Position numbers and translations under genes: made by a program. The notes below the pieces were generated by a model. The model worked only from the letters and a program-made list of their open reading frames with translations, ran no database searches and was not told where the DNA came from. A DNA stretch of 64,000 nt from Pomphorhynchus laevis (Eukaryota > Acanthocephala > Palaeacanthocephala > Echinorhynchida > Pomphorhynchidae). Shown piece after piece: positions 13,801 through 60,400 of this stretch (positions are counted from its first letter, which is position 1; the number at the start of each line of letters is the position of its first letter). The stretch lies in NCBI GenBank assembly GCA_012934845.2, contig WNNJ02003214.1, positions 62,001 to 126,000 of the forward strand, written 5' to 3'.

Positions 13801-16800
13801 TATTTGTTAAATCTTACACACCAACATTTAGGGTGCCGGTAAGACCAACGTGGCATTGCTTTGTATGCTACGAGAAATAGGAAAATATGTTAACAGTGAA
13901 GGGGTCATCAGCACTTCTGAGTTTAAAATAATATACGTCGCTCCCATGAGATCTCTTGTACAAGAAATGGTTGGCAATTTTAGCAAGGTGGGTAACGATA
14001 ATAAAGTATTAGCTTTTTTTATTAAATTAATTCTTTTAAAAAATTAATTCTTATTGATGCATTCTTATTAATCGATTGTATTATTATTTTATTATATTAA
14101 TGTGAGATTTATTCAGAACAGTAAAGACAATTACAAGTCAAAAATCGTTCATGAATCATTACGCGTTTCACACAAATTTATGCGTGATATCCATGTAATG
14201 ATGCACGCCAAATAAAAGGTCTCTTACTATAAAATGCATTTCTCTAATTCAATTGAGTAAAAACATGAGTTAACTTATACTCAGGGTCTAAAAGTGCGGT
14301 CTTACTTTCAAGATTTTGAATATTTGTAAGAAATTCATGGGTAAGAGGTAGGTTAAAAAGATCTCTTATATAGATCAAGCATGGTTTCACCTTTGCTAGG
14401 AATCCTACGATAGTGCTAGAGCACTTCGTTGAAACCCCGACTATTCTTTTATTGCATCGAGTCTGGCAGTTATCGATCTGTTTATAGTTGGATGATTTCA
14501 GGTCTGGCCAGAAGGGTGATAATCCGTAAAGTAAGCAAGGGAGTAACATTATTTGAAAATAATGTAGAGCACCTTCGAAAGATAAAGCTCCTAAATTTGC
14601 GAATCTTGAGGTAGCACCTACTATCTTTGCGCATTTGTTTTAAATATGAGAAGCGAATGACCATCTTGACGTCATTAAGATTCCTAGATATGTGTAATTA
14701 GAACAAAATTCTAGTTGTACATTATCGATAAAAAGTTGATCAGACCGACATAGATAACCGCCTCTACCAAATTTTATCACTTTTGTTTTACTTATATTAA
14801 TCAACAATTTATTATCTTTACAATACGCAGATAGGAAGTCTAACGCGGTTTGTCCGGAACTAATATCAGAGCACAATATTGCTAAGTCATCAGCATACAG
14901 TATTGAAGTTGTATCGCCGTTAATTTCTCTCAGCTTAGTAGGGAGATTCATTAGAAATAATGAAAATAGAAGAGGACTTAAAGGGTCGCCTTGTAACACA
15001 CCTTAATTTGCGATAATCGGTGGCGAATAGTAAAGGCTGTCATACAATCTCAATGTATTTTCCTGTAGAATACCGTGCAATAGCGAAAGCAACCTACCAT
15101 GAATACCAACCTTACAGGTTAACTTAGATAACAGCAGCGACCCATTATAATAAGAATAATAAATTAATTTATATTACAACTTAATTTAAGTATGATATTA
15201 ATTTATATTGATCCAATTTAAAATATTTAAAAAATATTTTCGAATATTTTTATATATTATATACAAAGATTTGAATATGGAAACTCGAAAGCATCAAAAA
15301 CTCTTATTTAAAAAATACATTTTGTGTGAAAAATACAGACTTAATTTTAATTACAAAATATGACTATTGCTCTTTACTATGATATCTTTTGCATATTCTC
15401 AATTTTTATCTAAATCTAAGGTAATTAAAGTAGTTTTATTTCAAAATTTGTTATTAAAATTTGTTACAAATTTTTATTTATAATCAATGGAAATTTTATA
15501 AGTTGATTTGATAACCCAATAGGTAAATGCACTTTTTAAGTAATAAAAGCAGGTAGTTGAATAAGTAATTAAGTGATTCCTTATTCGATTTAAGTTAAAA
15601 TTTACTTATTCGATTAAGTTTAAATTTTTGTAATAGTTAGTTACACATAACTTATTAGAAATATATCCATCCTGAACATTTTAAAATTTTCAGATATAGT
15701 TGAACGACTACAAAAATTTTTTTGTAGTCGTCTTTAGAATATTAGACGACTACAAAATATATTAATATATCATCTTTAGAAAATTAGACCTTTATTTCTG
15801 AAGATGCTAGTAGTTACTAGCGAAATATCAAAATATTTTTTTTGTCGTTAAACTATACCTGATAGTTACTTATTTAAAAAATTTAAATACAGATCATGAT
15901 GGATATATTTCTACTTTTAATTGTAACGAAAAAAATTTACAGAATTTCTTTTATATATATTTTTAAAGATCCAGGAACAATCAGGTATAGTTGAACAACA
16001 ACAATTACAATTTTGATATGTTGATAGTAACTGTTTGCGTCTTCAGAAAATTCTCAGATAATTATTTTCAGATAATTGGAGAAAAACGAAGTCAATTTTC
16101 TGAAGATGCTAGTAGTTACTAGCGAAATATCAAAATGATTTTTCTTGTCGTTTAACTATTCCTGATAGTTCCTGGAAATTTAAAAACATATGTTATTATA
16201 AAAAACTGTTTGAAAGGCGTGGGAAATGTGCAATCTTCTAAAGTATTTTTCATATATTATTTTTTATCAACGAGCCATTGAATAAATTAAAATTGAATCA
16301 AAATCGTCACATTAATAAAAGTATGTATGGTCAGGATTAGGATTTTGTAAGCGAAATTTAATCCTTTTATTTGCAAGTATTATTTAGTTAATATTATTTT
16401 AGTAACAAATCAAAAATAATTATGTTATATTTTTTTAAAATTACTCTAATTGATAATCGACTTTAAATAATTCATAATTATTTTAGTTATGATAATCATA
16501 TAATTGCTCTAAAATTATTTTTTCTTAATCAAATATTAAAATTCTTAGCGTTTAAAAATATTATGAAACAAATTATTTATTAATTTTTATAAACTAATTA
16601 ACTTATCAAAAAATGCTCATTGTCCAAAATTGTATGAAAAACTTAGTTATTAATTAAATTGACTTTAAAATCATATAATTGCGCAATAATCTTTAGTCGA
16701 AACACTTTTTGTTTAACATTTTGCTTTAAATTGTTTTCTTTTAGCGGTTAGCATGCTATAATATTAGAGTCGCTGAATTAACAGGAGACCATCAACTAAG

Positions 16801-19800
16801 TCGCGAGCAAATCGACGATACTCAGGTTATTGTTTGTACACCTGAAAAATGGGATATTGTTACACGTAAAAGTGGCGATCGGGTATACACACAGTTGGTT
16901 CGATTAATTATATTTGACGAAATTCACATACTGCACGATGAAAGAGGCCCTGTATTAGAAAGTATCATAGCTCGTACCATTCGACATATTGAGTGCTCGC
17001 AAAGTGACGTAAGATTTGTTGGGCTGAGTGCCACACTTCCGAACTATGAAGATATTGCTAACTTCTTGCGCGTTGAGAAGGGTTTGTATTATTTTGATAA
17101 CAGTTTTCGTCCCGTGCCTCTAGAACAACAGTATATCGGTATTACTGAGAAGAAGGCGGTTAAGCGTTTTCAATTGATGAACGACCTAGTCTATGAAAAA
17201 ATCATGGATTTCGCTGGTAAAAGCCAGGTTTATTAAGGAAGTTATTAATTTAAATGTTCTTTACAACGATCGTTTTTAGGTACTAGTATTTGTTCATTCT
17301 AGAAAGGATACTGCAAAAACCGCTAAGATGATTCGTGACGCATGTCTATCTCGTGATACTATAGGAGCGTTTCTTCGCGAAGGATCAGCATCAATGGAAA
17401 TTCTTCGAAGTGAAGCAGAACAAACAAAGGTTGAAAATAAGTTATTTTTAAATATATTAATGTTATACAACATATATTATTTTCATATTAAATTTTTTTT
17501 TATTTTTTAAATAAAAAAATAATATATTTTTTAATATATTAAAAATGTTTTTTTTAATATATATTATTTAATATATTAATCTATTTAATAGGGAAAACTC
17601 TACAATAAGATTATATACTTCCAAAAATCATGTAAGATATAAAATTACGGTTAATACAGTTATTAATACAGTTAATTACTTTTAAAAATCAATTTTGATA
17701 TATTCAGTTAATAAATTATTAAAAATAAATTAAGTAATAAGAATTGAAAGTTTTTATTAACCGCAAAGTATAAATAAATCAATTTACAACAAATAAATCG
17801 TTAATGTGCCAAATTTTATATTACATGGATATTATTTTTTATTGTATTTATATCACTATATGACTATTACATACTAATGTATGTTTATAATTTAATATAA
17901 TTGATTATATATTATAATTTAACGCTTTTTTGGAAACAGCTTATACGAACATCAAATTTTAAATATATTTTCTTTGTGATCAAAATTATTGTTAGATTTC
18001 TTGTAATTTTAGTCAACCGCTGTTCAGTGGAGATATGCATCTATCGTGTATTCAATTTGTTATATTCTTAGTATATTTGTATTTTTTGGGAGCAGTGAAT
18101 TTCAGCGGTGGGCAATTTTACCTGAATCAAAATTAGAAGAAGATCGAAATACACAAAACAGTGATACGAATTGAAGAATTTTAGGAAATTTATAAGCTAT
18201 AAAAATTGAAGGATCAGCTTTGCTATAAATTATTGCCCAGAAATAATGATTTTTGCTTTGAAAACATAATTGTTTTGAAAAGCGTTATTTTAGTCAATAT
18301 GATGTATATTATATATTATTAAGTCAAGTATCAAAAGTAAATAGTATGTCATTTATTTATAATCTTTATTTCTTTTTTATATATTTTACTATATATTTTC
18401 TTTTTTGATTAAAAATAAATCTTTAATAAATTGATAAAAGGCGAAATCTTTTGATGCATAGTTTTGTTGGTAAGCGTCAGATAAGATTTTTTGATAAAAG
18501 AATTTGCATATTTTATTTAATTTTTTTTGTAATTAAATTTAATTTTTCATATATTTTAATTTTTCACTTTCATGTGATTTTATATAATAATAGATTCTAA
18601 AACCATTACAATTTGTTTTTTACATTTGCTACCAAGCAAATGTGAAAAGTAGCTTAAAAAACTTGACAAAACATGTATATTTATCAACTAAAAAGGTTAA
18701 CCTTTTTAATCGACTGTTTATTGCTTCTATTTGTTTCGCTGGTCTATAAATACGCTTTAAATACTGGAGCGTTCACAAACTTGAAACATCTGAAAGTCTA
18801 CAAAAATATATTATTTCGAGGTGTAATTTTATATTTATTGGAATTGAATATAAAAATGGGCAAAATCTAAAGTGATGCTTTGAATTGCTTGAGAATCAGT
18901 GATTAGATTAAAGTAAATTCGCATCAAAATGATATTACTTGTTTACTTGTTACATCTTATACTACATCTTCAACTTGTCCACTGACAAGTTGAAGATGAT
19001 GACTGACAAGTTGGAGCTGATGACTTGTCTACTGCCAAGTCATCAGCTCCTACTTCCTTATCTTTTACCGAACTCGCTGACATCCTTTCTCATTGTTCTT
19101 TGTCCTCAATCCCTTCACTCGTTCTAGGCGACTTCAATATCCGCCTAGACCGCCCCTCTTCCACGGATTCCATCCGGTTCATCAACATTCTATCCAACTA
19201 CAATTACAAACTAATCTCCACTGCCCCCACACATATACTTGGTGGGGCACTCGACATCAACGCTATCCCCGATCATTTGCTGCCTACACCTCACTGTCCA
19301 TCTATGATCCTGGTCTATCCGATCACTTTCTTATCACCCTTGATCTCACTCGCAACAACCCCGTCCTCACACACCTACAATCCTACGTCGCCCTTGGAGA
19401 AATCTTGACCTCTCCCTTCTCCGCTCTGCCTTACTCAAATCGTCTCTATCATTACCCACAATAACATATTCATCTCCTCACGATCTCGCCTTTCTTTTCG
19501 GCTCTGAACTCACATCCACTCTCGATATTCTCTTGCCCTTCAAGTCTAACCCACACCGTCGCTTGCACCGTGCCCCATGGTTTGACATCCAATGCCTACT
19601 CTCAAAGCGTCGACTCCGCCATGCTTTTAGAGTCTGTCACCGCTCTCTCAGACGTGATTTCCGCTCGATCACTCCGTCTTTCCGTGATTCCTATCTTGCT
19701 CTTCGCCGATCTCATCTCAACCTACTACGTTCCAAATGCAACTCATTCTGGCAGCATAAAATCATCACTTCATTCAACTCTAAGACTCTCTGGCATATTT

Positions 19801-22800
19801 TTAACTCAATCCTTGCTCGCTCCTCTTCGCCGTGCAACATCAATGCCAATGATTATTCGTCATTTCCCCAGACTAAAGTATCCACGGTGCTCTCTCACAC
19901 CCCGGTCTCCATCCTATCCCACTCTGCCCAGTCTAGCCTCATTCTTCCGGAACTCTTTCATATTCTCCCTGTCTCACTTACAGCAGTATCATCTGTCTTC
20001 ATGTCCTTGCCCAACAAAACATCACCTGCCGATCCTCAGCCTACTCACATATTTAAATCTATATGCTCATCGATATCCCCATTTCTCACAACCTTGTTTA
20101 ACTCGTCCATCCGCAGTCGTATCTTCCCTTCACACCCGAAATCCGCAATCGTTCGTTCTCCTTAAGAAACAATCGCTCGACCCCTCCCTTCCTTCTAGCT
20201 ATCGCCCCATTTCACTGCTCCCTAGTCTTTCAAAGCTCTTAGAACGCCTCATCTTAATACAAATCAACGCTTATCTCTCCTCATCCAATCTGTACCCTCC
20301 TTTCCAATCCGCTTTCCGCTCTTATCACTCCACAGAAATAGCATGCATGAAAGTGTACAACGACTTACTCATTTCTCGAGACAAGGCTCTATATAGTGTT
20401 ATCATCTCCCTCGACCTCTCCTCCGCATTCGACATTGTCGACCACTCCGTCCTCCTGTCTCGCCTTCGTTATAATTACGGATTTTCGTCCCCCTCCGTAG
20501 CATGGTTTGCCTCATATCTATCCAACCGTTCCTTTCGCGTCTGTTCTAATTCATCATCCTCCCCTCCCATCCCTATTTTTTGCGGGGTCCCACAAGGTTC
20601 AGTCCTAGGTCCCCTGCTTTTCTCTCTTCTGCTTGGCGATCTATCTCCGTTTATCAAACCTTACTCCTTTAAGGTCATGCAATACGTCGATGACATTCTA
20701 ATCTATGCTCATGCACCCGCACATCGCATACACGATATCGGCATTTCTGCCTCCAACTGTCTTTCTTCTATCTACAAACGTCTCTCTAATCTCCATCTCG
20801 TTCTATACCCCGAAAAGTCCAAAATAATGTGGATCCTCCCCCGTAAACCAAACATATCTCCTCCCACTTTATATTTTTCCTCATCGATCATCCTCATAGT
20901 CCACAATCTCACTTTCTTAGGCTTCCATTTTGATGATCACCTTTCCCTTAAACCCTTCGTCTTTGGCAAGGTCCGCTCATCTAACTTAATTCTCCGTGAC
21001 ATCCGCCGTATCCGCCCCCTTATCGACTTCCGTTCTTGTATGTCTCTTCTTTCATCGTTTTTTTCCCTAAAATCGATTACTGCCTTAGCCTTTTCTCCAA
21101 TTCTCCAAATCCATAATCCTACCACTACAACGAACTTCGCTTCGACCACACATCCACATATTTTGCTTAACTCTCCTGGCCCACCATCCACATCCGCATC
21201 AAATACTTTTCGTCTCATCGCTGTCGGATCCTTATCGTTCATCAACCTTCCTTTCTTAGACGACACTCGCCCCACTTCGCTTTTGCTGCGTTCTTGTCAT
21301 ACCCTTTTACTCCACGTTCCTTATTACTCCAGCAACTACGGTCTCCAATCCTTCCTCGTCGCCGCCCCACTCGCCTTGCCTCACGTCCGCCGCGTTTTTT
21401 TCCCTAAAATCGATTACTGCCTTAGCCTTTTCTCCAATTCTCCAAATCCATAATCCTACCACTACAACGAACTTCGCTTCGACCACACATCCACATATTT
21501 TGCTTAACTCTCCTGGCCCACCATCCACATCCGCATCAAACTCCGCCTTCTTCTCGTTACTTTTCGTCTCATCGCTGTCGGATCCTTATCGTTCATCAAC
21601 CTTCCTTTCTTAGACGACACTCGCCCCACTTCGCTTTTGCTGCGTTCTTGTCATACCCTTTTACTCCACGTTCCTTATTACTCCAGCAACTACGGTCTCC
21701 AATCCTTCCTCGTCGCCGCCCCACTCGCCTGGAATCAACTCCCTCTTGACGTCCGCCGCGCCCCCTCCTTTATCACATTCAAACACCTCCTCCGTTCACA
21801 CCTTATCGACACCTGATTCACAGTTTTGTTTTGCTGTGGTCATGTAAGCGTGCGCTGGCACGCATTTGCGACGTTAAAATAAATCCTCTTTTTTTGACAA
21901 GTTATTATTGATTTGTGGACTTCAGAAATTCTGAATTTTTATTTATTGATAATAAAGATTACAAATTTAAAGAGTATAAAGCTAGAATATTTTTTGCAAG
22001 AAAATTGTTGTATTATTAAGAACATTATTGTATTATATTTTTTTGTATTATTGATTCGACATTATTATTTTTTGCTTATTTTCAACTAAGTTTGGTGAAT
22101 TTCTATTTTTGATGGATATGCACATAATAAATATCAAATTAACAATAGACTCAGTTTGAGTCTGTTGTTAATGGACCTAATGATGATTAATTAATGGACT
22201 CAAACACTTATATTGATTCGTCAGAATCAAAATAAGTTACAAAACAATTTACAGCTATAAATTAAAGATTAGATAAATTTATATAAAAATATAAATAATT
22301 GACATATATCGGAATAATTGACAATGATTGCCCGGATACGCTAAGATTTAATGATCAGTGTAAACCTTGTATTTTCTGCTGTTACTAAAAACACACACCT
22401 TTTAAAGGGAGACTAATTGTATCGAATAATTAAAACTATGAATAAATACTAAAACTATCTATTCTTGATACGGTATTGTTATTGTTCTGCTTATTTTCAA
22501 GCAAGTTTTGTTAATTTTATTTCTAAAATAAAATATTTTTTATAATTGGCCACAAGTTTAACTTTGTAGTATGTAATTAAACAAGAAATTATCCATTTTT
22601 TTGAAATACTAAAATACTTTCAGTATTTCAGAAATACTGCAACTATGAATTCTTGATACGAAATTATTTTTCTGCTAATTTTCAAGCAAATCAAATCAGC
22701 TAACTGAGTCTACGTATTTAATTTAATTATAAAATAAACAAAACATAATAATGCTAAATCAAAATTTAAGTCTAAGTTATTTTTAATTTTAGTTTAATCT

Positions 22801-25800
22801 AAGTTTTAAGTTTGATAATTTTTTTCTATCTGGATTTTTTCTTGTTTTTATCTTGATGACAATTATCATTCTTAAAAAATGTATGACAAAATTTGCTTGA
22901 AATGCGACATTCCAAGCAAGTTTTGTTAATTTTTTTCTATTTCTTATAATGGATTTGCATAAATCAACAAAATATTACAAAAATATTAAAATAAAAATAT
23001 TAAATATAAATTACATATACTCAGTTATCTGATAGCATAATCTGTTATAAATTCTAAAACTATGTATTAAAGAGTACAATTTTTTTTAAAAGAAAATTGT
23101 CATTCTTTCTGCCCTCCTTAATAGAGGGCAGAAACAATAATAGAGTACAAAAGAATGCTAGAACTTTTAAAAATGCCATTCTTGATGACATTTGTCATAA
23201 TAATTATTATTATTAGTCATTATTGTTTTTTGGTTATTTTCAAGCAAGTCTGATGAATTTATTTCTATTTTTATATAATAGGAGGTTTAATAATCAACAC
23301 ATACTCAGTAAATAAATAATAAATAACTTTATAAATAATAAAATTATAATATACTTTATAAGTTTATAGCAAAATAATATCCTAATAATTTTAAATATTT
23401 TGCATTTTAAGTGCCAATTATTGTTGTGCTCGTATTTGTGATCATCAACTACGCGAAAGAAGATATTAAAGATTTTATTAAAAGATTAAAAGATAATCTT
23501 TTAATTCAAAATTTTATTTTTATTTTTATCTTTATGATTAGAATCTGGATTTACGAGATTTGTTGCCTTATGGCTTTGCAATTCACCACGCTGGTCTTAC
23601 ACGTGTCGATCGAACTCTTGTTGAAGACCTCTTTGCTGATCGTCACATTCAAGTTCTAGTTTCGACTTCTACACTTGCATGGGGTGTTAACTTACCCGCA
23701 CATGCAGTTATTATTAAAGGTACTCAAGTGTATAATCCTGATAAGGGCAGATGGGTGGAACTTGGAGCCTTGGATGTCATGCAAGTAAGATTACTGTTTA
23801 ATCCATTTTCTGTATCTTTAAGCGTTTTTCATTTGTTTTTACAGCAAAGCTTATGTTTGCTTAATTATAGTTGATAACTTTGTTATAATTTTACACGAAA
23901 TAAGTTTTGATATCTATTTATAATTTTAATTTATAATTACCACGATGTAAACTTAAAATTCAAATAAATTTTTAATAATTAAGTAAAATTATTCAAAATT
24001 CCTAAAATTACACTCACACTTTAATGTTTTATTTAATTTTTTATATATTTTTTGAAGTAACCAAATCAATCAAATTAAAAATTAAAAATATAAAGTTAAA
24101 ATTAAAAAGCTATTATACAATATATTTAAAATATAAAACAATTCGTTATTGAATTAATTCTTAAGCTACTTTTTCCTAAATACGTTTATATTTTAATATA
24201 TAATATTTATAAATATAATCATCGACTGCATTTTCTTTAAAGTAATTATTATCAAAAATAATTATTTTCTTTAAATAATAATTATTAATATATAAGACTT
24301 GAAAATAAGGTAATCGAATTTAATAGTTGTTTAGATAAGAGCTATTACGTTAATGATGATTATTAGATATAATAATTAATTAATTACTTTTTATTAAATT
24401 TTATAAAATAATATTCAATTTTTATTAATAATTAACTAAATATAAATAATTATTTGGCGTAATTAATATCGAATTTTTTTACTACTAAAAGAATTCAACG
24501 GCTTTTCACAAAATGTGACTAATTTTTATTTATTGAACTAAATAGTTTATTTATATTAGAAATTTTAGTTGTCATATTACACAGTAATTTTACTAGTCAG
24601 AATAAAATCTAGAAGAGACTTTTTTCTATATTTTAAAATGTACAATTTTATATTATCTTCAAATGTTTTCTTCTGGTTTTATTAAAAACGGTTTTGGACC
24701 CAGTTTTTCTGAACACTTTATGTTTTTTCTATTATTGGATGACCTGTTTGTTAAAGCATGCTATTTGAATTTGAGTGATTATCGTTATTAATTACTAAAA
24801 GTTTTGTGTTTTATATATTATAAGATGCATTATTTTAAAAGCTGTTTTCATCTTATGATATTAGATGCTTGGTCGAGCAGGTCGACCACAATATGATTCG
24901 AAGGGTGTTGGAATTTTAATTACCAGTCATAACGAATTACAATACTATCTTTCATTAATGAACCAACAGGTACGCTTTTCTGTACTGTTTTAGTTTGCAT
25001 TTTTTATTTCGTTAGCTACCAATCGAGAGTCAGTTTATATCTAAAATTGTTGACAACTTAAATGCGGAAATCGTGCTGGGCACTATTCACAACGCTAAAG
25101 ATGCAGTTAATTGGTTAAGTTAGTATTTGTTTTATGTCTTCTATGTAATAAGTCTTGATTATTATGAAAACTTTAAACATGGGCTTTTGTTTCATTTTTG
25201 AATGGTGTAGGCCACTTATTTCGAATACGTTTTTATGATAATTGATATTTCACAAATTAAAAGTAATTTCGGAGATCATAGAATACTAAAATATAAAAAT
25301 ATTCTACAAGTAATCAATGACGCCTCTTATTCACAAGGAGGCGTTAAACTCTTGTCCCATTAAAATATAAAATTACGATATCCCAAGTTCAATTGCAAAG
25401 CAAATTGTATATTTTTAAAATACGGTACATTTCTTAATAAATTGTTTCATAATAAATATATAATAAATAGATAAAAGAAGAATAATAAATAATAATCAAT
25501 ATAATATATACATATATAATAAATATATAATCGATTAGCCAGGAACGATATTTTATAATTACTGTAAAGAAATTCAACCAGGTTAAATAATAAAGTAAAA
25601 ATCGAATAACTTTATCTAACGTTTTTACAAAAATTGAGAAATAAATCTTATATTTACTAAATAACAGATAAAAGATAAGAATGGATTTCTTTTTAGTAAT
25701 TTCGGAGTTAATTGAATATTAAATTAATCAAATATTCATAATAATTTAATTTTAATTGGATAGTAAATAATCGAATTTGTTACAATGAAATTTCGATGTT

Positions 25801-42147: not shown

Positions 42148-42426
42148 AATGTTGTTGTTACCGTATATTATAGAACTACGTGTACAATAATATGTTAGAA
42201 TAATGTTTGAATTTATTCTCGACATTCATTTTAAATATAACATTTTACCAAATGCTAGATTATCTAATCGCGTATACATGGTTTTAAGCTAATTGTTTAG
42301 CCACTCGGATTTTTAAGATACAATCCTAATAGGGTAGAAATAATTATTTTCTTAAGTATTTATATATTAATAGACAATTAGTGTATCAATTGATAAATTA
42401 AATTTCCAAAAATGCAATTTAAGATG
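42148..42426. other. Intergenic gap between two convergent genes
   Basis: Only 279 bp separate the Brr2 TGA from the RFX TGA on the other strand, so the 3' UTRs must be short or overlap. No AATAAA is seen for Brr2; AATAAT occurs near 42170 and 42193. Confidence 0.5.
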
Positions 42427-45400: not shown

Positions 45401-48400
45401 TAAACGGAAGCAGAAATCGATTGACAGTTTTGTTGATCCATATTGCCCAACATTCCACTTCATTATATTGAGACAACATACGCAACATTTCACTGTAGAT
45501 TCGGATAACTATGTCTTTGTCACAACGACATATCCAATTTAAATCGAAAAATACTAGTTCAACATCCACCGATTGTAGTGATGTGTACACTGACGATAGA
45601 CGGTCATCAACACAAAATATTTTGTCTACATACTGTTTCAATTTGTTAATATTCCGCATCTGATCAATATGAAGGCATACGACATCTAGACATTCACACT
45701 AAAAGGAAGTAATTCATATGTAAATGAATGATTATTAATTAAATAATTATTAATAATTAATTAAATAATTATTTAATTATTTCTAAATAATTAAATATAT
45801 ACAAATTTTATTCATAGTTCGATATAGTCACATAAGCTGTGATGAAGGAAACCTAAACACTCTTGAAATTCAGATCTTGCGATAAAGCTTAATAAGCAGA
45901 AACCGGTATAGGGAGTTGATTGCTGATGAACTAAAATAGGATTCAAACTCCGTTATGTTAATTCCCCCTGTTAATCGATCAATGTTAACTATGATGATAT
46001 TCGCTCCTAGCTCAAACCTTAACAACATTTTCCCATAAGTTTACAAAATCATGATGTTGTCACCCTTAACAAAGATCAGCCAGCAAAAATCAACTTATTC
46101 CAATCCTAGTTAGGTTGGTGTACGTACAATCACACTACATATATTTATCATTTAATATTAGTAGCTTTAAAATATTCTGGATATACTAGCCCAACTTATT
46201 ATACATGTCTATTATGCATGAACTTTACATATGCGTACATATGTAACGGTTTGCTCATAATCCACTGATCATTTGTCGACATTGTAAGTTCAAATGTGTG
46301 CCGCTGGTAGCTTTTAAGTTAGGTATAGTCCGATTGCAAAGAGCTGATAAAATAATCCAATAATAATCATCCAATAGTCCAATTATACATTCAATGTGCT
46401 CTTAAATTGTTCAGGGAGTTTAAACATCGAGAGGAATAATAAAATAAGAAATTATTGTTCACAAATTTTTGACTATTGCAATAGTCCATTTCGAGTGTTA
46501 TGTTTTTTATCATCAAATAGTGTGTTTTAGTGGAACATCGCTAACTATAATAATATTTAATATAATAATAAATTAATTAAAATGCAAAAGTTAGTCAGAT
46601 CAAAGGCTGAATTAGTTATTATATATATTGCCAAAGCTTTCGCCACGTTACGGATTCGTCAGTGGCTCATTGTAAGAATTTATAATAACCAAGACAATTT
46701 AAAGAATTGCAAGAATTTTTGACACATTTAAAGAATTTTTAATAACCAAGACAATTTAAAAAATTGTCTTGGTTATTATAAATTCTTACAATGAGCCACT
46801 GACGAAGCCATAACGCGGCGAAAGCTTTGGCAATATATATAATAACTAACCCCGCATTTGATCTGATTAACTTTTGCATTTTAACAACATGAAGCTGAGA
46901 GATAAACGGATATTTAATTTTATTAAATTAATTAGTTTTTTGATAGGTTTTTGAATGCTCTAAATCTAACTTTTTGAACGCTTTCAAATTTCGAACACGT
47001 TACAAATCAATGTCTATTTTTGTTGAGACGCAGTGTGGTCTTGGTACATAACCAAACTTAGAAAAGCGGCTTTAAATTTTAATTAAAATATCCTGTAGTG
47101 AAGGGATTAGTTTAATGAGCATTTGCTGCCTTTGTAGAGAGTAACATCTGCATTTCGGTCTATTTTGGTTATAGATTATTGAATAAAGTGAAGCACTTAT
47201 AGAACATCCTTTTTAACATCCAGCTGCTCATGTGATTTAGGCTAATGACGGCAGACTTTGATAATTACATATCTAAATTGTATGATTTCAGTAAGTGTTT
47301 ATTTGATAGCTTATAAATGCGCTGACATATTAATTTTATTATATGCTATGGGAAAACTTGATTTATCAAGTATCGTCGTGACTAGGTATCACCTTTACGT
47401 TAGACATGATAATATGTTATTATTCAAAAATAATTATTAATTATTAATTAAATCCAGAAATTCGTATGACAAAATTATTCTTTTTTCGAAGAGAATAATA
47501 TTTTTTAAATATTTTAGGATCATTTTGCTTCCGAAAAAAGATATTAATTTATGCTAATCATTGTAGATCGTTATTTGTATAGTTTGATCTCAATGTATTC
47601 TCGAAATATTAAAGCTACGTTTATGCATTCTCACTTAAAAAATTAAAGCATTACTTGAAATTTACGATGTTTTTAAATTTTATGTTTTTAATATTTTTTA
47701 AATTTACAAAAACGACAATTTTAAATAAATGAAGTAATAAAATCGATAGATAATGATATCAATATAAGATTTATCTATAAAAGAATATAAAAATGTTTAT
47801 AATTCCTTAGAGTAAGGAATTATATTATTTATAATATATTACATTATTATATTAATTTTTATATTATTTATAATATAAATATCTTTATATAATATCTTTA
47901 TAATATCTTTATATTATTTATAATATAAATATCTTTATATAATATCTTTATAATATCTTTATATTATTTATAATATAAATATCTTTATATAATATCTTTA
48001 TAATATCTTTATATTATTTATAACATAAATAAATTAGAATTTTATTTAAGTCTGATGGATTATTATGCATATTGCTGGAATTATTATAGACTCAAGGAAA
48101 GAAGTTTTATTTTGTTAACAAGCTTTTTTCAATCGTTTAGATCCTTTTCAAGTTCCATTTTAATTACAACTTGAAAAGGATCTAAACGATCGAAAAAAGC
48201 TTGTTAGTAAAATAAAATCATTTTTTCCTTTAATTCATAATAATTCCAGCAAATGCATTTAATAATATGCATACTCTATAATTTTAATATAGATGTGAAT
48301 ACTGATATGAATAAACGAACCTTGATGTGTGAAATTATTGTATATCGATCTGTTGTCGAAATGATATGTCTACTTTCATCAATAAATCTTTGAGTAAAAT

Positions 48401-48412
48401 CAAAACGCTCGT
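42427..48412 (-). CDS. RFX C-terminal exons (dimerisation domain and stop)
   Basis: Exon 48412-48321 ends STTDRYTIISHIK, matching the family's QTLRRYTSLNHLAQ. Exon 45698-45337 continues CECLDVVCLHIDQMRNINKL, LNWICRCDKDIVIRIYSEML, VECWAIWINKTVNRFLLPFN and FRKAGKIFVSKINAF. Exon 43804-43651 completes a split Cys codon and reads NAITKELTLRNCKCIIDVMY then FTSEYMTYLVLHKISEQFQQ, the family's VIRDLTLRSA...DEYMFYLVEHR block. The last exon, 42495-42427, encodes 22 residues ending VVPVKSEVET. Phases are consistent throughout. The loss of the usual SFGSFHLIRLL core is unusual and may weaken dimerisation. Confidence 0.82.
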
Positions 48413-51400
48413 CTAAAAACGTATTAAAAATAAATATTATTTTCAAGTGTATGACGCAAATACACATCGTGAATTTGAAATTAGTAAAGCTGAGAGTTAA
48501 TATAGTTTACACGCTAATACATTTTAGTATTTAATTACTGAATATCAGTATTGAAGGATTTCATTACTGAATTTTCGTTACAGAATTGAGATCAATTTTA
48601 CCAATTAATGATGAAACATTATTAAATATGTTCATTTCAAGAAACTCTAAGCACGGTTTTATTTATATTTTACCAAAAGGCCACAAACATATACACTCTT
48701 CCCGTCCAATCATAGCTACTTATAATACATATTCATATGTAGAAAGTAAGTGCATAGATAATGTGCTCCATAATAATTGAAATAATGAACATTTTTCTTA
48801 AGGGATGATATAAAGTTCGCAAAACGTATAGATGTTGTTGACATTTCAGATAAAATAATGTTTTCAATAGATGTTATCTCACTTTTCACTAATGTCTCTT
48901 TATTAGATGCTATAAAATTAGCATTGGGGTTATTGGTCGGTACTGAGTTTGGTAAACATTCAGATGTTGACGATTGTATCACCTCGCTAAAATTGTGTTA
49001 ATCAAATATTAATTTTAAATTTGAAGATTAAATGTAGGAGCAAGTTTATAGTTTATCTACGTGGAATCCTCTAGCACCAGTACTTGCAGAATTATTAATG
49101 AGGAATTGGGAATTAACACGCCATAAAATATTGATGTAATCCACATACAACTTAGGTACGTAGATGATACTTTTATTCATTTGAAGAAACCGTGTTATCC
49201 AGATCACTTCTTGAATATGCTAAATGTTGCGATGATAATATTTAGTGGACATTAACAAAGGAAGAAAATGATGTGTTATCGTTCCTAGATATTAACAAAA
49301 TTAGATCACTCACTAATATAGTTGAAACTGATGTTTCCCAAAAGATTAACGAATATCCTAGCATTGTTAGCATTAGACCTAGGAAGTGGAAGATTTCCGC
49401 TGTTTCGTCTCTTTTCTTTAGAACCAATGAAATGTGCTCTAGTATATATAAAATAAGAGGGATGATATCATTAATAAGAGTCTAGTAACTATTGGATATT
49501 CTACCTGGGCAATTAAAAGATCTTATTTCAAAGGAAATAATGTTATGACAAAAATGGTAGGGTCTCAACTAGAATCAAAATACATGGGTATACCGTACAT
49601 TAATTATAAATAGAATACCAAAATGATTAAACATATAAAAGGTTCGGAAATGTTTATAACAGAAAAATGCCCAAAATACAATTTTTTAAACGTAAACCTG
49701 ATTACAATCAAGATAGTGTTGTATATCAAATATTATGTGAAGGTTGGGATTCTATTTAAAGAGTCCAAACATGGCAAAGTTTGACTAGACGTATTTACCA
49801 TCAAATATTCTGTTAAAATGGAACAGGATCTGGCGCTGATATAGACAATTCCTCAAACATAGAATATCTTTTGATAATAGTGTAATGATTTCCGTGGAAA
49901 ACGATATTTTAGAACTCAGGAAGTACAGGAAGCATATTTTATGAATCAAAATAAAAATTTTTTAACGCGTAATAATAAACCGGATAATACCTGATAACTG
50001 TTATAACTATTATAACTGATATTTTATAATTAAATATTTTGTTTGTAAAATTTATTATTTTATGTATTGCAATTGATAGGTATTGTTTTAATGTTTTATT
50101 TTATATTTTATGTTGGTTTATTTTTATTGCGATCTAAAGTATTATTTGTTTCATTTTGTACATAAATAAACATTGAATTTTTCAATGTTTAATTTTTTGT
50201 TTTAACAAAAACGGAGCACATCTAAATGATGTATAGATGAAATATTTCTATGAATATTGTACATTAAAAGGAGTACATCTGGTTGTTTAATCTACTGCGC
50301 TGTATTAAACATGATTCTGTAAAGGATTTTGAACACTTTGATTTGCTACGTCGTGAACTAACTATATATTTTGATTTTGTACATTTTTCATAATTTTGTC
50401 CTGAGGATGATAGCAGTTAGCTATCGAAAATTTGACTTTCAATAAAAATAATAATAATTCCACTATCTCAATTAATTAAATATAATTTAAAATGAGTAAA
50501 CAAATAATTTACAAGATAAATGGTATATTGTTAAATACAATTTTAGTTTTATGGCAATTTTAAGTAGTTGAAATTTAATTTACGCTAATTTTAATGATAA
50601 TTTGATTTCAAAACTCGTGTATCTTATTATTAGAATATTCTAATACTAAGATATCGAGATTAGTTTATTTAACTGAATATATGAGATTTAATTAATTTTA
50701 AATTTTAGAAATAATATTAATAAAATAAGGTCCTAATTTGTAATAATTTTATATTATTAAATATATTTCTAATAAGACAAAGTCATTTTAGTAGTGACTA
50801 ATATGTTGCTTTCATACACGAGTTTTAAAATCAAACTATGATAAAATTTTGCGTAAATTAAATTTCAATTACTTAAAATCGTCCATAAAACTAGAATTGT
50901 ATTTACCGAAATACAATTTATAAATAAAACCTTTACAGAAGCGTTTTGGTAAATAAAGATGTATTACCAAGATTATCTGCTAGCACGTCTGCTACAGCAA
51001 ATTCTATGAATCTCCAATATAAGTATATATCACACCTTTCTATATAGTACTGAACTTTTGATGATAAACAGACCTTGCTCATTGGTACTTCATGCCAGTA
51101 ATCCCTAAATGACATATGCAATTAATAATTGCGTGCTAATCAATTTTGTAATACTAGATTATGTTACATTTAATTTACATTTTTAGTAATGCATCATTAA
51201 CAACATATCTAAGAGAATTCTAAGATTTAAATAAACATACATATTTAGATCAACTTTTAATTAAAAACCTTTGTATTATTGTATATAAATGCTATTTAAA
51301 TAACTAATCTAACAAAATACTTTTAACCAAAATTCAACTTTAATCTTTCAAATAAATAAGTCAACAACTGCACTCTTATGTCATGTTTGAAGCTAAAATT

Positions 51401-54400
51401 AAAACTAAAATTTTATCGGATAAAGTTTTTTGAAAGTTATATTAATAAAATAAGCAATAGTCAAAAATTTCAATAATAGCAAATTAGTGAAAAATAATTT
51501 CTTATTTTATTATTTCATATCACATCGAATGTATCATTAAACAATAAATGACATTATTTATATAATAATTGGCATTAGAATCATCTATAAATTATATGGT
51601 CATACGCAGCATATCTGCAGAAATATACCGTCCCTTCATGCTCACCACAATTGTATATTATAGGTAATATAAACTTTATAAGTTGTAATTATAATAATGA
51701 TTTTTTTAAATCATCATACGAATAGATGACAGTTATATCTCCAGAATGATATTTAATAGAATATCAGTAGTGAGACTGATAGAAGAGGATCAATCAATGA
51801 TTTATTGAAATTATAATTTTAAATTTTCGTCTGCAAATGCTGACATTTAACAATTATTACAAGTCACTGTTCTATAATGGATAAAAAGGGTACAAAGGTT
51901 GAATCAGATAATAAAACTATAACTATATTATATTGGAATCCTATTGGAATCAAAATTACATAAAAATGCATTATAAAAGATAAAGTAAAGTAAAATGTAA
52001 TGTAAAGTTGTATAATAGACAGTTATTGTAATATAAAATACTATAATCGGACAATAAATGCTAATAATAACAAGAACAATATACATTTACCATAGACTTC
52101 ATAAATAATTGTATAAATAATATAAATATAGGGGGACATTTATACTAAAAGTAAATAAATAATAGGGTCAGATTTAAGTAAATATATTCATAAAATAAGG
52201 TATAAGTTGTTACCGCCATTAGAACGAAAATTTTGTAATATGTAACTTCATATTCTAAATGCTTTATTATGATATACTAATGAAAGATGTTAATTCTGAT
52301 GATTTAAATGTAAATCCAACATATGAACGTAGTGGGTTAAAATTAGAAACAATTATTACGAGTCACTGTTCTATAATGGATAAAAAGGGTATAAAGGTTG
52401 AATAAGATAATAAAACTATACATATATTATATTGGAATCCAAAATTACATAAAAATCCAATAAAACCTAGGTTCATATGTAGTGCGCTTAAATGTACATT
52501 AAAACCACTTTCTGTCTATATGAATAAAATATTTAAAGTAATTAAAGCACATTTTAAAAAATATTGCAAGGTAATCGAAATTAATACTGGTATTAAACAC
52601 TATTTCAGTATTAATTCTACAAAAGAATTTTTAGAACAGACAAAAGGAATAAACTTTCAAAATATAAATACATACGATTTTAGTACGCTTTATACTAATC
52701 TAGATTTAGTAGATATTAAAGAAGCGTTAGTAAAATTAATTAATCTTATATTCGGAAAAATATATACATATATATGTTATAATAATTATAACGCCTATCT
52801 AACAAAAATTAAACCATCAAATAAATATAAATATATGGATAAAATTGAATTAATAGAATCCTTAAATATTTTGATAAATCAAAATTATTTAAAAGTAGGG
52901 ACATCTATATTTAGACAAGTAAAAGGTGTTCCAATGGGTGGTAATAGTAGCCCAATTATAGCTGATTTATTTTTAAGCTTTATAGAATATAACTTTGTTC
53001 ATAACTGTTTAAAAAATAAATCTAAACTATATAAATATATGAAATAAATGCTTCGATATATTGATGATATATGTGTATTTAATTCTAATAATTTTTATTC
53101 AATTAGTGAGCACATTTATCCAGAAAGCCTTATTCTTAACAAAACCAATATTAATGATAAAGAAGTTGTATATCTAGATATGAACATTAAATTAACATTA
53201 ACTAAAACTACTATTAATTTATATCGTAAAGATGACATATTTAAATTTACAAGAAACATATTTTTGCATGAGCATCCATGCATACCATATAATATAAAAT
53301 ATAATACATTAAATAATGAAATTTTAAGAATTGCAACAATATGTAATGATATTGGCTTTCTTCAAAATCATTTAAATAATTTAATAGATACATATTTTAA
53401 ACTAGGTTACTATAAAATGTCATCATAACTGATATATAATATCTTTAAATGAATATTTTAAGATATTAAACTATTACACTATATTTAAATGAATACATTG
53501 CAATGCATTTATTTACAGAAATGCATTTGATATGATTAAATTTCTTTAATTCAATTATTTAAATAAATTTAAATTAGCATATATTGATGTGTTAACATCT
53601 ATATCTAAATTAATGCATTTATTTTTAATTTAATAAAACCGCAGGAAATATTATTTGTTTTGATTTTAATATTTTCATTGTTTACCTAAATTTAACTGAC
53701 CGTTTATTAATGTGTTCGCACCTATATCTAAATTAATGCATTTCTTTTGCATTCAATAATGCAATTATATAAATTTAAATGGATTTAAATAGCAATTAAA
53801 ACCGCAGGAAATATTATTAGTTTTGATTGGCAATGAAGTCATCATAACTGATATACAATTAAGTAATTGGTATCGAAAATTCGTGGACAGCGAGAAAATC
53901 AAAATATGCGGTGATGATAATTACATTTAAAACATGACGAACTGTCCTTTATGCTATTCAGAAATGTAAATTAGCCAGATTATTGTCAGCGTCTAATATT
54001 AACAAAAATATAGACGAAATATGATTATCGTGTCATTATTTGAGTAACGAGTATTTATTTACAAAACGAAATCGTTATTTTAAACAAATCAAATCAGCTA
54101 ACTGAGACTACGTATTTAATATAATTATAAAATAAAAATAAGAATACTATATCAAAATTTATTAATTCAATAATAAATAATTATGAATAATATTTTGTAT
54201 AATTTATACCAAGTTAAAATTTAAAATTGAAATTTAAAATAAAAGTCAATTTTTATGAATTGACTAATAAATAACAGACGTTGTATCAGAATAATAATTA
54301 GGGGTCATCAGGAGGAACTGCTATTCTATCAGGTTTCGGTCCCTAACTCCTCTACCCAACATAGCAGCGGGGCCAAATACATGCTAATGATGTATTTCCT

Positions 54401-57400
54401 ATGATAACACTATCTAGTATCTTATTCTAATACAAAGTATATTATTTATTATTCATCCATAAAAATTTGCCACTTAAGAGTTTAAATTTATTTTCAATAT
54501 TATTGTGCTGATTTATATATTTTACTATTTTCTGCTTGATGTTATTTTTATAGTAACCTAGTTTAAAATATGTATCTAATATCATTACATATTGTTGCAA
54601 TTCTTAAAATTTCAGTATTTAATGTATTATAGTTTACATTATATGGTATGCATGAATGCTCATGCAAAAATTTGTTTCTTGTAAATTTAAATATGTCATC
54701 TTTACAATATAAATTAAAAGTAGTTTTAATTGATGTTAATTTAATGTTCAAATCTAGACATATCTAGACATAAATATAAAATATAACATATAACATATTT
54801 ATATCTAAAATATTTTATCCAGTTATCCTTATTTAAAAATAAGGATACCCGGATAAATTTGTACAATAAATAAAATTTCAACAATAAATAATTGTTTCAA
54901 AAGGTTATTGTTTTTCAATAATTTTCAATAAAAGACTTGGTAGTATTTCATTTGTGAAAACAAAAGAAATTTTTTAATGTGTAATTAAATTTTGATTCTA
55001 GTCATAGCCTAATGACTAGAATCAAATGTGTGATTCGAATTAGCACTTTTGGCATTAGCAAAATTTGTGAAAAATACTCATTACCGTAACGATGTGCGCA
55101 ATCATTTTTACTATTAAAACTAACCAATACATTGGAAATTCTTTCAGACCGCTAAGTGCTTGCTCGATATTTTCATCAACAATCTCTTCGAACATTTTCT
55201 AAAATCAAAACATAAAATTTTATAATTTGCTAATTTTTAAAAATAAAATTAGTTTAATAAAATAGGTTAAAGCAACAAATCTATTGTACCGGTTTCAATA
55301 AAATCGTAAACTACTTGAATTTGAGAACTAATTAATACTAACCAAAAAGTTCTGACTACAAATGTAAACAATTATAATAATATAATTAAAGTAATATTAT
55401 AATTATTTTATATAATAAAATATTATATTTATTACATTATATTAAATATAATTATCTAATTATCTAATATTAAATATTATTATAATATTATAATATTATT
55501 AAATTATAATTAAGTCATAATGTAATTTAAGTAAATAAATTACATAATAAATAATAAATAAATAAATTGAAGTAATTAAAATAAATTTAAGTAATTTCAT
55601 TTTAATATCTTATTAATTAGCAATTAAACAACTCGCTCCTTTTACAAAGTGTATGTTCCTTATGACAATATAATCATCAGTTATTGAAAATGTGGTCAAC
55701 CGAATTTAGAGTTTCAAAGAATGAACTTTCATGGTTTTGTAAATGTTTCATGTTTATAAATTATATAAAAGGTTATCGACACTGCTTTAAATAAAAATGA
55801 GTTGTAACTAATCATAACTTTTCTCAAAATAGAGTAAGTAATGAAATAAATATATTATCTGTTAATTATTGAATTTAAAGTGTGCATTTATGCGTTTGTT
55901 TCATTTAATCAAGCATGATATGCAAGTAAGTAAATTACTTATCGGCCATGTTTGATCAGACTACACATCGTGGATTTATCAAAAACGTTTAAAATGCTAA
56001 GGATTTGTGAAAGTATAAGCGGTCTTGATCTTGATTTTTATATTTAATAATAAGGTATAAATTGTTTAAATTCTCCAATTCCTTAAAAGTTAAAATTATA
56101 ATTAAATATATTAAAATTCGAATTTTAAATCTTAAATTCTTTAAAAAATATTTTTATATTGAATTATTGTCTATTATATGTAACATTAACATTTGTATTA
56201 GCAATTTTACAAAATAGAAATTAGATATTTATACTGTAAACAAAATAAAAAAATAATTTAATAATTTATTTAAATTAAATAAATTACATATATGTAAATA
56301 TTTATATAAATATTTACAACAAATAAATATTTTTTGTATGTAAATATTACATATTTATATGGTACATATTTTATATGTAGTTTGAAAGTAACTAATGTAG
56401 ATCTATCTTATCTATCCCTTCTAAATTTGGAATTTTTAATCATATAAGTATTTGCTTAAATGTAAATTTTTAGTAACCCGTTTTGTGGAATAACTATTTA
56501 AAGTAATTTTAAGTTTACCAAATGAAATGTGCTAATAAAAACTTGTATTTCTTTGATCATTCGTAATGAAATAATTACTCTTATCGACGTGCCTCGTTGT
56601 TTTCTTTGTAGCATCTCGTGAATTTGAGCAAATCTTGTCTAGATACTCCATCAGCGTCAGATACATTCATGATAGCATCTAAAGAAATTAAACCGATTAA
56701 ATTAGTAGTTTCGTACAAATTTGAGGGCCGCTAGGTGCCATTCGATTAAGCATTATCTGGCAGTTATTGCCAATTAGCATCTTCGAGGAGCGGCCCAGGC
56801 AACGTATGTGCAACATTAGTCTATCAACGGCTTAATAATTGGCAGGCTTGCATAATCCGTAGGGTTAGTTCGTTTATATAATATCTCAGATCCCTCCGAT
56901 GACTCCAGCGGCGGATTGGACAATGCACGTAAAGGCGGAAGAGAGTCACGGAGGCCTGCTTAATTACAGTAGCGATGATGAATCATCAAAGGATATCAGG
57001 AACGTGAATTAACCGAACAAACAACATCACTCTGATGATTCCAACAGCGGATTGAACAATGGACCGAATGGCGGAAGATATTCATTAGGAGCGCTGAACA
57101 ATGGTCAACTCTCCACCGAAGGAAAGAGTTTTCATTGACGGGCGCCGTGTGACCAGGCAGTTGTACGAAGACAGCGAAATAGGCATCAACATCTAAAGCG
57201 GATTAGCTTTAATGTAGGAACGTGTAATGTCAATTTTGCTGGTTGGGAAAAACAAGAATTAGTTAGAGAGATTTTTCGCTTCAGTCTAGAAATAGTCGGA
57301 GTGACTTCTCTTCACTATTCTGGAAATGGAACTAAACTTTTGGATCAAGGTTAGACATTTAACAATTTTTGGAGAGCTATCAACGGAAAGCGACGGCAGG

Positions 57401-60400
57401 CGGGTGTAGGGTCACTTCAGCACCGAAACGACCAGTGGGTACTTCATTTCACTAATGAGTATTGCCGAGTACTCCATCATTTCGGTGCTGAAGTGGTTGT
57501 CTAGAAGTGACATGGTGTCAACCACGGTCTGGGGTCTCTTGCAGACTCATTGTTATGTAATTAGTATAATGTTAGTAATAATGTTATTTACCATTAGTAT
57601 AATGGCAAATATTCTATTATTCGTATCGATGGAAGTAAACAAAGACTCGACGTCGACTGTCGCTAGAATGTTAGATGTAACATAATATTTGTTCGTGTTG
57701 AAAAATCAGAGCAAGTCGTCAGTACTTGATATGAATGAAGGTGTTCTCTCTAGCAGTGAATACAGCTACTCATAAAGCCATCGGGATTATTTTTTGTCCT
57801 TCATGGCGGCGATGTATATCTTTATGTACCTCCGGCAACGTATAAAACCTCCCCGGTTTTTCGGATTAGTTTGTAACATGCGATTTCTTAGTTCGTCATC
57901 GTGGAAGTAAGTTTCTGTCATTGCTTAGACTTGTTGGGCATTGTCGAGGTGTTTTTGTACTGAGATTGGCTCGTACGCTGAGGAGCTTAATTGACGTGTT
58001 GCCTCGTTTAAATATTCTTCCTGTGACCATAAAAGAATATTGTTTCCTTTGCCTGCTTTGAACACCACAATTTCAGGATCGTTACTGAGATTACGTAACG
58101 CACGTAATTTATCGATTCACAGATTTCTTAACTTTAAGGAATCAGGTCGAATGTTCATGTAGCTAGCGATAACTTTCTCATTAAAAGCATATTTAATTGC
58201 GGAGAGAACCCGAGACTGGCTGATCCCTTGTATGCACGACGCTGCTATTGCTTTTATAGATTTGACCACGAGATAACGCTGATGTTCTCTTTCAAACATT
58301 ACAAAATTTAAGCCTAGCGACAACGATTCTTCTTTTACTTCCGAGAGTTTTTAGATTGTAAGATTAAGCACATTGCTTGTATCGTGATTATACGCGTTGT
58401 TGTATCGTTGCTTTCGGTGGTAACAAGGGAGACGTCTTAGTGTTTGCGCTCTAAGTGTACAAGCATCGACTGATAGATCAATTTGGCGTCGAAGTTTATT
58501 TACCTTAGAATGTATAGTGTTCATATTCAAATACGTTAAAATTTACTTCGTCAGAGCGTTCAACATATTCATAGAAGTCACGTAATATGTGGGTAAGATT
58601 TATTGATGTAGCTTTAATTGTTTGGTGTCATCGATATTTAAGACGATTTTCAGTGTTTGCAGGAACGAGTGTCCAGTTTACTTGCATAGATTTTCTTATT
58701 CTTAATTCAGAGGTAATAATATTGTTAGTGCATCAGAACTGTAAGTATTGTCGGTGTGCTTTAACTCGTGCTCGTTTAAACGTTGGGTCAATCAAAGACG
58801 CTCTGTAGTTATAACCACCGTTTGGGATCTCTTGCATACTCGTTGTTATGTAATTAGTATAATGTAGAACCAGACAAACGAGTACGTTTATTTAAATAAA
58901 TAGACAGATTTGGCAAAAACGTTTCGGCACAACGCCTTCTTCAGTTATCACAGTTATTTTGGCTGTGCACTGTAGATAGTACATTCCTGGAAAAATCTAA
59001 TCAACAAGCGAAAAACACAAAATTCTTGAATATTGTGGTTGGCATTCAGAAAATTTTAATCATTGTTGAAGAAGTTCAAAAGGATAGTCATACTTGTTTA
59101 ATGATTTATTACACATTAACTGCCCAATCCAATATACTTCTCTTAACTTGAGAATGCGATTATTCTAAATCGGACCTTAAATGATTGTTACTTTCATGTG
59201 GTGTTCCGGATGATCGATTATGTGAGCTACTACACCGTCTGAAGTTAGGCGTTTAGTGAATATGTCTCTGCGTCGATTGCCCGCTCTTATATTATACTGA
59301 GTGCTTGTTAAGCTAACGTATTGCTCATCACAGTCTAAGCATTCATCCAGGTAAATCACGTTTTTATATTTACATGTGTATGTGCCAGAAACATCGTATC
59401 GGTCCTGTTATGCAGCTGGAGAATTGAGTCACGTCGGACATTTCGGGACAATGTTTACACCGCTTGTCGTTGCAGGGTCCGCTCTTTCTATAAAATTGTT
59501 GCACTTTGATCCCTATAAATTGTTTCTGAAACATTAGTTGCAGAAAAGACTAATTGCTGAATCTAATCAAGGGTTTAATAACAGCTTTATTGTATGTCTT
59601 GAGCACGTCATCGATATCTGATTATAGTTTTCTTACTAGAAGGGAGTATGGTATGACTACATTGAATTTTTTTCACGTGATCCCTTTGTTTATTTCAAGT
59701 AGCTTCACCCTTTCCAGATTACGTACTCTTTCAATCGGTGTTTTTATCTGGCGCTGGGAATATCCTCGTTTCAAGAACTGGCCTTCTAGCTTTTGCACAG
59801 ACTTCGAACTCATTTCACGTGAACATATCTTGCGTATTCGCATTGCCTCATTTCGTATGACAACGCAACGACATATAATATGTAATATAATTATGACAAA
59901 TAATTATATTTTTTAAATAGTTTATCTGATCCATTATCGATAAATAATTATTGGAGCTGGATCAAAATAAAGAAGAAAAATTTTATTTGATATATCGCTA
60001 AATAAATAATTAATAATCAATAAAATTAATAATTAATAATCAATATAAATAATCAATAACTTTCGACTAAATGAAATAATTTAATTTTTAAACTGAATGA
60101 AATAACACATTTGTTTTTAAATAGTTGATAATGATCCATTATTGATAAATAATTATTGGAGCTGGATCAAAGAAAAGAAGACATTATTTTTGATATTTCG
60201 CTAACTTTTGTTAGCATCTTCAGAAAATTATAATTTCCTGAAGATGCTAACAAAGGTTAGCGAAATGTTATTTTACAAAATAAAAATGTCGTATATGATG
60301 GACGCCGAGATATTTATAAGAGTTGATGAATTCGATAGGTCGCTAGTCTAGCGAAAGTTTATCGGAATAAGCGAGGCGTCCACTTTGGTGCAATGTGATG

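Follow-up and report, generated by a model that had tools for sequence, protein, structure and literature searches.

Minimal hammerhead-like ribozyme motifs in small inverted-repeat elements of Pomphorhynchus laevis and their possible relation to Penelope-like elements

Introduction

Minimal type I hammerhead ribozymes of Penelope-like elements (PLEs) were described by Cervera and de la Pena in 2014 and by Lunse et al. in 2017, as cited in passages of PMC7761336 and PMC6155905, and they are also treated in a section of PMC7229834. Here we describe eight hammerhead-like motifs, six of which lie in small inverted-repeat elements, in a stretch of 64,000 nucleotides from the acanthocephalan Pomphorhynchus laevis (assembly GCA_012934845.2, contig WNNJ02003214.1, positions 62,001 to 126,000 of the forward strand). 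This whole stretch is referred to as the window and all of the positions are counted from its first letter. Hammerheads that are located in the pseudo-LTRs (pLTRs) of PLEs have been published (passages of PMC7761336 and PMC11167929), while their role is called still unknown in the relevant passage of PMC7761336. According to the part of PMC11167929 that deals with the Anolis PLE, hammerhead cutting required the PLE protein, and insertion in vitro did not require cutting. Terminons, which are named in passages of PMC7229834 and PMC7761336, are also PLE-related and have minimal hammerheads, but they are giant telomeric elements, and none was recognised in the window.

A second system that is close to the elements studied here comes from the bdelloid rotifers. 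Passages of PMC3846280 describe PLEs with inverted pLTRs, mostly head-to-head, and with palindromes at the junctions, which were explained by self-priming; solo pLTRs with captured sequence between them are also mentioned in a few cases. In Adineta vaga, the same passages report target duplications of 8-10 bp in several Penelope copies and none in others. The word "hammerhead" occurs nowhere in the main text of that paper. The group of P. laevis is considered possibly closest to the bdelloids, and P. laevis shares the PLE expansion that was inferred for the bdelloid-acanthocephalan ancestor (passages of PMC7943196). The same source puts the repeats of P. laevis at about 66%, and PLEs at about 15% of the transposable-element content. 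The main text of the P. laevis genome paper (PMC7310846) contains no Penelope, hammerhead or ribozyme. Moreover, no report of acanthocephalan hammerheads or of outward-facing hammerhead pairs in foldback elements was found in the top-ranked open-licence literature.

Results

The original prediction had placed a CTGANGA box, a short hairpin and a GAAA box at eight sites of the window and had described their carriers as several unrelated small elements. Both boxes were found on the claimed strand at all eight sites (Table 1), which were correctly located, although the minus-strand numbers fell only near the low ends of the motifs. The hairpin, stem II, has at least three contiguous Watson-Crick pairs in seven of the eight, the exception being the left-arm motif of element B at 46634-46662(-), whose closing pair is mismatched. 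Lack of relationship did not hold for the copies at 15.8, 16.1 and 60.2 kb, which belong to one family (A), and the copy at 50.4 kb is, by eye, an apparent distant relative. The copy at 16100 lies 302 bp further on than the one at 15798, and all 32 nt are identical.

Table 1. Hammerhead-like motifs, the inverted-repeat elements that carry them and the remnants of Penelope-like elements in the window
Feature	Positions	Strand	Remarks
Motif A in element A1	15798..15829	+	minimal type I, family A; predicted cut after C15829; stem I 3/5 paired
Motif A in element A2	16100..16131	+	minimal hammerhead, family A; stem I 5/5 paired
Decayed hammerhead, A2 left arm	16015..16046	-	AACA replaces GAAA; stem II broken
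Motif B, left arm	46634..46662	-	mismatch as stem II closing pair
Motif B, right arm	46799..46827	+	strict-scan motif
Motif C	50401..50433	+	main PLE reverse transcriptase match about 1.8 kb downstream
Motif D	58918..58944	-	behind the PLE endonuclease match
Motif A3, minus-strand copy	60192..60223	-	family A; stem I 4/5 paired
Motif A3, plus-strand copy	60238..60269	+	family A; stem I lost, 1/5 paired
Element A1	15658..15911		inverted repeat, TA on both sides; motif in right arm, none legible in left
Element A2	15955..16191		inverted repeat; motif in right arm, decayed motif in left
Element B	46577..46884		foldback, 308 bp; arms identical at 116/124 compared positions
Element A3	60195..60266		two family A motifs as a near-perfect palindrome of 72 bp
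Repeat after A3	59910..60001	-	second, truncated copy; partial tandem with 60114-60204, 87%
PLE reverse transcriptase, decayed	52244..53404	+	in-frame stops
PLE reverse transcriptase fragment, inverted	54584..54757	-	related to 53169-53353
PLE linker (CNDKRCKHC) and GIY-YIG endonuclease region, decayed	59072..59486	-	

A strict scan for CTGANGA, a stem II of at least three Watson-Crick pairs and GAAA gave seven matches in the window, while 200 dinucleotide shuffles gave 24 in total (0.12 per window, maximum 1) and 60 first-order simulations gave an expectation of 0.03. A loose pattern, which needs no stem and to which NNTH was added, matched eight times against a shuffle mean of 0.54; eight was reached by none of 100 shuffles. 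Additionally, GAAA is followed by NN'UH (a pairing dinucleotide, U and a non-G) in 7/7 strict matches compared to 2/24 chance matches. The eighth motif has it as well, which brings the total to 8/8, one of the NN' pairs being U-G. Because the seven strict matches are not independent, they were also counted by family, which gave 4/4 against 2/24 (about 7e-4 by hand arithmetic). The step after the core is a self-complementary ANN'U, which reads AUAU (AUGU in one), AGCU, AAUU or ACGU; the order of core, ANN'U and UH is that of a type I hammerhead in which helix III is the self-complementary step only. The eight motifs are not a chance product. Judged by their sequences, they belong to the minimal type I hammerheads published for PLEs, in which helix III is nearly missing, and their cleavage activity is predicted. 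When a looser score was applied together with 40 shuffled windows (best shuffled score 20.3), only the decayed arm at 16046(-) and a site at 62447(-) were added to the known sites.

The original prediction had also taken the cores to be shaped as an RNA fold, with compensatory changes expected in stems I and III. MAFFT alignments A1 and A2 (labels of alignments, not of the elements) were dropped, as they set motif B out of register. In a loop-trimmed alignment of the eight motifs with 80 cells, 82.5% of the cells were paired compared to 60.7% after shuffling, and slid registers gave 32.5-50%. The covariation score was 0.686 compared to 0.230. Neither value was reached by any of 500 shuffles, a significance that relatedness among the motifs can inflate according to the tool's own warning. 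The cells of stem II were 95.8% and those of stem III 100% paired. Changes on both sides of a pair were found in stem I (5/5 pairs), stem II (2/3) and stem III (1/2), so this part of the prediction was borne out. Across the eight motifs, the NN' pair is UA in three, GC in two, and AU, CG and UG in one each. Single pairwise comparisons are cleaner evidence than the shuffle statistics: between the motifs at 15798 and 60223(-), the two stem II pairs that differ are both compensated, and so are all of the differing pairs between 15798 and 50401, namely two of stem II and that of stem III. These pair changes fit an RNA fold. At least three of the first five stem I pairs can form in six of the seven strict motifs; stem I is thin at 58944(-) and lost at 60238. 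For the motif at 46799 with 35-nt flanks, the lowest-energy fold has the hammerhead stems, with stem I split into segments of 4 and 12 bp.

DNA hairpins or recombination signals that merely resemble hammerheads would account for the palindromes of 72-308 bp, for the lack of a hammerhead match in Rfam and for the seven of eight motifs whose lowest-energy fold is not a hammerhead. Such signals need neither a fixed CTGANGA and GAAA nor an NN'UH whose pair type switches outside stem II, and we regard this explanation as highly improbable.

Six of the eight motifs are inside four inverted-repeat elements, A1, A2, B and A3, which the original prediction did not describe. In B and A3, both arms are legible and the motifs point outward; the same is true of A2 via its decayed second motif, and in A1 the outward arrangement is visible from the arms only. 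One copy of the motif is sounder than the other in all four elements: the left arm of A1 has no legible motif, that of A2 has AACA, that of B has a mismatched pair and the right copy in A3 is without stem I. The repeat that follows A3 on the minus strand recurs about 200 bp on, where it is truncated inside the motif. The window also contains palindromic elements at 62456-62684, 48059-48266 and 50516-50921 for which the scans gave no motif of this kind, and the first of them matches Rfam MIR2630 below the cut-off, probably merely as a long hairpin. A partial canonical type I hammerhead at 62400-62447(-) adjoins a palindromic element and has CTGATGA, a 6-bp stem I (TCACTG/CAGTGA), a 6-bp stem III whose loop is ATTG, and GTA. 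It has neither GAA nor stem II and was outscored by one of the 40 shuffled windows.

The foldback shape is also that of miniature inverted-repeat transposable elements (MITEs) of DNA transposons with TA or TTAA targets, in which case the motifs would have been captured from PLEs or inherited within terminal repeats and movement would need DNA only. This origin is kept alive by the ends of two elements, as TA flanks A1 and TTAA flanks B at either end, and motif-free palindromes in the same window are in line with it. However, TA and TTAA are common in DNA with 27% GC and, being palindromic, are read as part of the inverted repeat. No transposase was found in the 10 of 38 open reading frames (ORFs; at least 90 aa) that were scanned with Pfam. 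DNA transposons make up about 1.3% of the transposable-element content of P. laevis in the passages of PMC7943196. Those of the genome paper give 2.94% DNA transposons, yet they also assign 16.20% of the genome to unclassified repeats (PMC7310846). A MITE origin also leaves unexplained the NN'UH rule across four sequence families. We consider it rather unlikely.

The direct copies at 15798 and 16100 bring to mind retrozymes, with the release of a 302-nt RNA that a host ligase would circularise and PLE enzymes would reinsert. The spacing of 302 bp falls within the 170-400 nt of the animal retrozyme RNAs described in passages of PMC7229834. The unit is AT-rich and a 304-nt stretch over it is self-paired (-75.8 kcal/mol). 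Animal non-LTR retrozymes, as described there, resemble the present elements in being short, AT-rich and non-coding, with type I hammerheads and strong self-pairing. In contrast, their hammerheads are canonical and lie in direct tandem repeats, whereas the motifs in the window are minimal. Moreover, the 15798/16100 pair sits in two adjacent, differing inverted-repeat elements, and the tandem-repeat listing of the window has no array of these units. A retrozyme is thus a distinctly unlikely description of this pair.

The remaining two motifs, C and D, lie near remnants of PLEs. The ORF at 52406-53044 had 173 protein matches, and the best 120 of these were all unnamed; reverse transcriptase motifs are visible in the alignment. 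Four contigs that encode relatives (L001-L004), which come from prokaryote assemblies, served as probes of the window and revealed the three PLE remnants listed in Table 1. Their metagenome-assembled genome bins are labelled Nanoarchaeales, Gammaproteobacteria, Flavobacteriales and Flavobacteriaceae, and the contigs are probably eukaryotic contamination. A scan of viral contigs found no PLE. In L003, a Pfam GIY-YIG domain (2.4e-6) precedes the reverse transcriptase, and L001 and L004 have the same endonuclease-first order by eye with no Pfam match there; we take this to be the order of a permuted PLE clade. A single ORF of L002 encodes the reverse transcriptase and, behind it, a ubiquitin hydrolase domain (Pfam UCH, 5.6e-27). 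The region at 59072-59486(-) matches L001, L003 and L004 with E-values of 4e-4 to 3e-3 for the whole window. Pfam gave no match in the PLE pieces of the window, a protein search gave none for the endonuclease piece and a PDB search gave nothing relevant.

Motif D is on the same strand as the endonuclease region and between 128 nt (L001 match) and 236 nt (L003 match) behind it. The insert that holds this motif may end near 58866, at the start of a repeat that is also present at 57520-57572. Upstream of this locus, the reverse transcriptase matches were at chance level only (E about 1). Motif C had no inverted partner in the self-comparison of the window. The stretch between motif C and the PLE at 52 kb, whose 5' end this motif might form, gave no convincing remnant (best E 0.04 in a 1.9-kb target).

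A host gene that encodes the spliceosomal helicase Brr2 (SNRNP200) and has long introns occupies 5424-42144 (+) of the window, and by its sequence the host is P. laevis or a close relative. After six paralogous matches were left out, 11 of 26 collinear segments were 98-100% identical to a P. laevis protein and the others 54-96%; we take the lower values to reflect introns and frame ends within the alignments. A joined query of eight window ORFs, which includes intron readings, had this P. laevis protein as its top match (79% identity over 58% of the query), while among the best 120 of 7989 matches the next by score had 55% over 59% and a few others 64-68% over 30%. Reverse transcriptase ORFs (Pfam RVT_1) at 19465-21450 (+), within a strongly strand-skewed and GC-richer stretch, and at 14640-14999 (-) are probably long interspersed nuclear elements. 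A very AT-rich tandem array at 60931-61769 has a unit of about 171 bp in 4.9 copies with 98% matches.

Discussion

The reading that we favour, and that we hold to be moderately probable, is that the small elements are head-to-head pairs of PLE pLTRs without an ORF, which bear minimal type I hammerheads of the PLE kind. It joins two published observations, the inverted pLTRs of PLEs and the hammerheads in PLE pLTRs. As in the published minimal hammerheads of PLEs, the motifs have a CUGANGA/GAAA core, type I order and a nearly absent helix III and occur near PLE ORFs; unlike them, six of the eight copies are in ORF-less inverted-repeat elements. The head-to-head pLTRs of Adineta vaga, as described in passages of PMC3846280, are alike in being inverted, in their junction palindromes and in having one arm that is shorter or decayed. 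They differ in having an ORF or captured sequence between the pLTRs and in target duplications, which were not found here.

In the mechanism that we propose, the motifs would be seated in the pLTRs, and helix III would be cut down to the self-complementary ANN'U step, with the UH behind it as the predicted cut site. A firm helix III would form only with a second copy of the motif, as a dimer, or with the help of a protein. The direct copies at 15798 and 16100 could act as such a dimer in cis. A head-to-head pair would arise as the PLE enzyme self-primes or switches template at the end of a pLTR, after which one arm would keep the sounder motif and the other would decay. Self-priming and dimer formation are steps that we infer. 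A pLTR origin is likewise inferred for A and B, since no arm was seen next to a PLE ORF and target duplications did not exceed chance.

Several results weigh against this reading. The motifs at 46662(-) and 60238 and the arm at 16046(-) are within the range of the best looser scores of shuffled windows. Of the eight differences between the arms of B, three fall in the hammerhead, where they all affect stem II or its loop and spare the core. Target-site duplications at the four elements were none beyond chance, and palindromic elements without a motif are close by in the window. Two of the five measures on the alignment were weaker, as pairs with double changes numbered 8 compared to 5.5 after shuffling (reached by 20 of 500 shuffles) and further pair types 15 compared to 11.8 (55 of 500), and the cells of stem I were merely 67.5% paired. 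Among the lowest-energy folds with 35-nt flanks, stems I and II appear together for one of the eight motifs, that at 46799, and the closing pair of stem II for three. The best flank-to-flank duplexes were significantly better than those of shuffled flanks in none of the eight (p of 0.07 and 0.10 for the copies of B and 0.28-0.996 for the others). It can be argued, though, that a minimal motif that acts as a dimer does not have to be what a single short strand folds into best. The transcripts of A2, A3 and B form long hairpins (-45 to -187 kcal/mol) in which the motif should be hidden, while that of A1 folds less regularly.

The covariance search that the original prediction had proposed came out negative, as the models of Rfam gave no hammerhead in the whole window or in the stretches 46560-46900, 50350-50480, 58850-59000 and 15650-16200, with the sensitivity of these models to the known minimal motifs of PLEs unchecked; the element at 60.2 kb was covered by the whole-window run alone. 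The matches that were obtained were mostly to miRNA families, drawn by the palindromes. Full motifs were present in none of the four contigs L001-L004, which have two cores with GAAA and without NN'UH and hence provide no positive control. The link to PLEs that had been proposed originally is supported, with motif D just behind a PLE endonuclease remnant. A descent of the small elements from the Penelope elements of the window is putative, and no arm of A or B had a match among the PLE remnants when the window was compared with itself (pairs above 70 bits).

An extension of these ideas, which we think very unlikely, would make the elements ambisense ribozyme units. Whichever strand is transcribed, the inverted pair would supply a cutting motif, the palindromic ANN'U would pair the motifs of two RNAs and PLE enzymes would move the trimmed RNA. 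If this were true, a self-trimming RNA parasite would be stored as a DNA foldback element.

The kind of motif found here is already known, but its occurrence in ORF-less, outward-facing pairs differs from the published PLE cases. This paired arrangement is a useful test case. Elements that consist of little besides two inverted arms, with a sounder motif in one arm and a decaying motif in the other, allow a natural comparison, as mobility that follows the sound motif would mean that the ribozyme matters.

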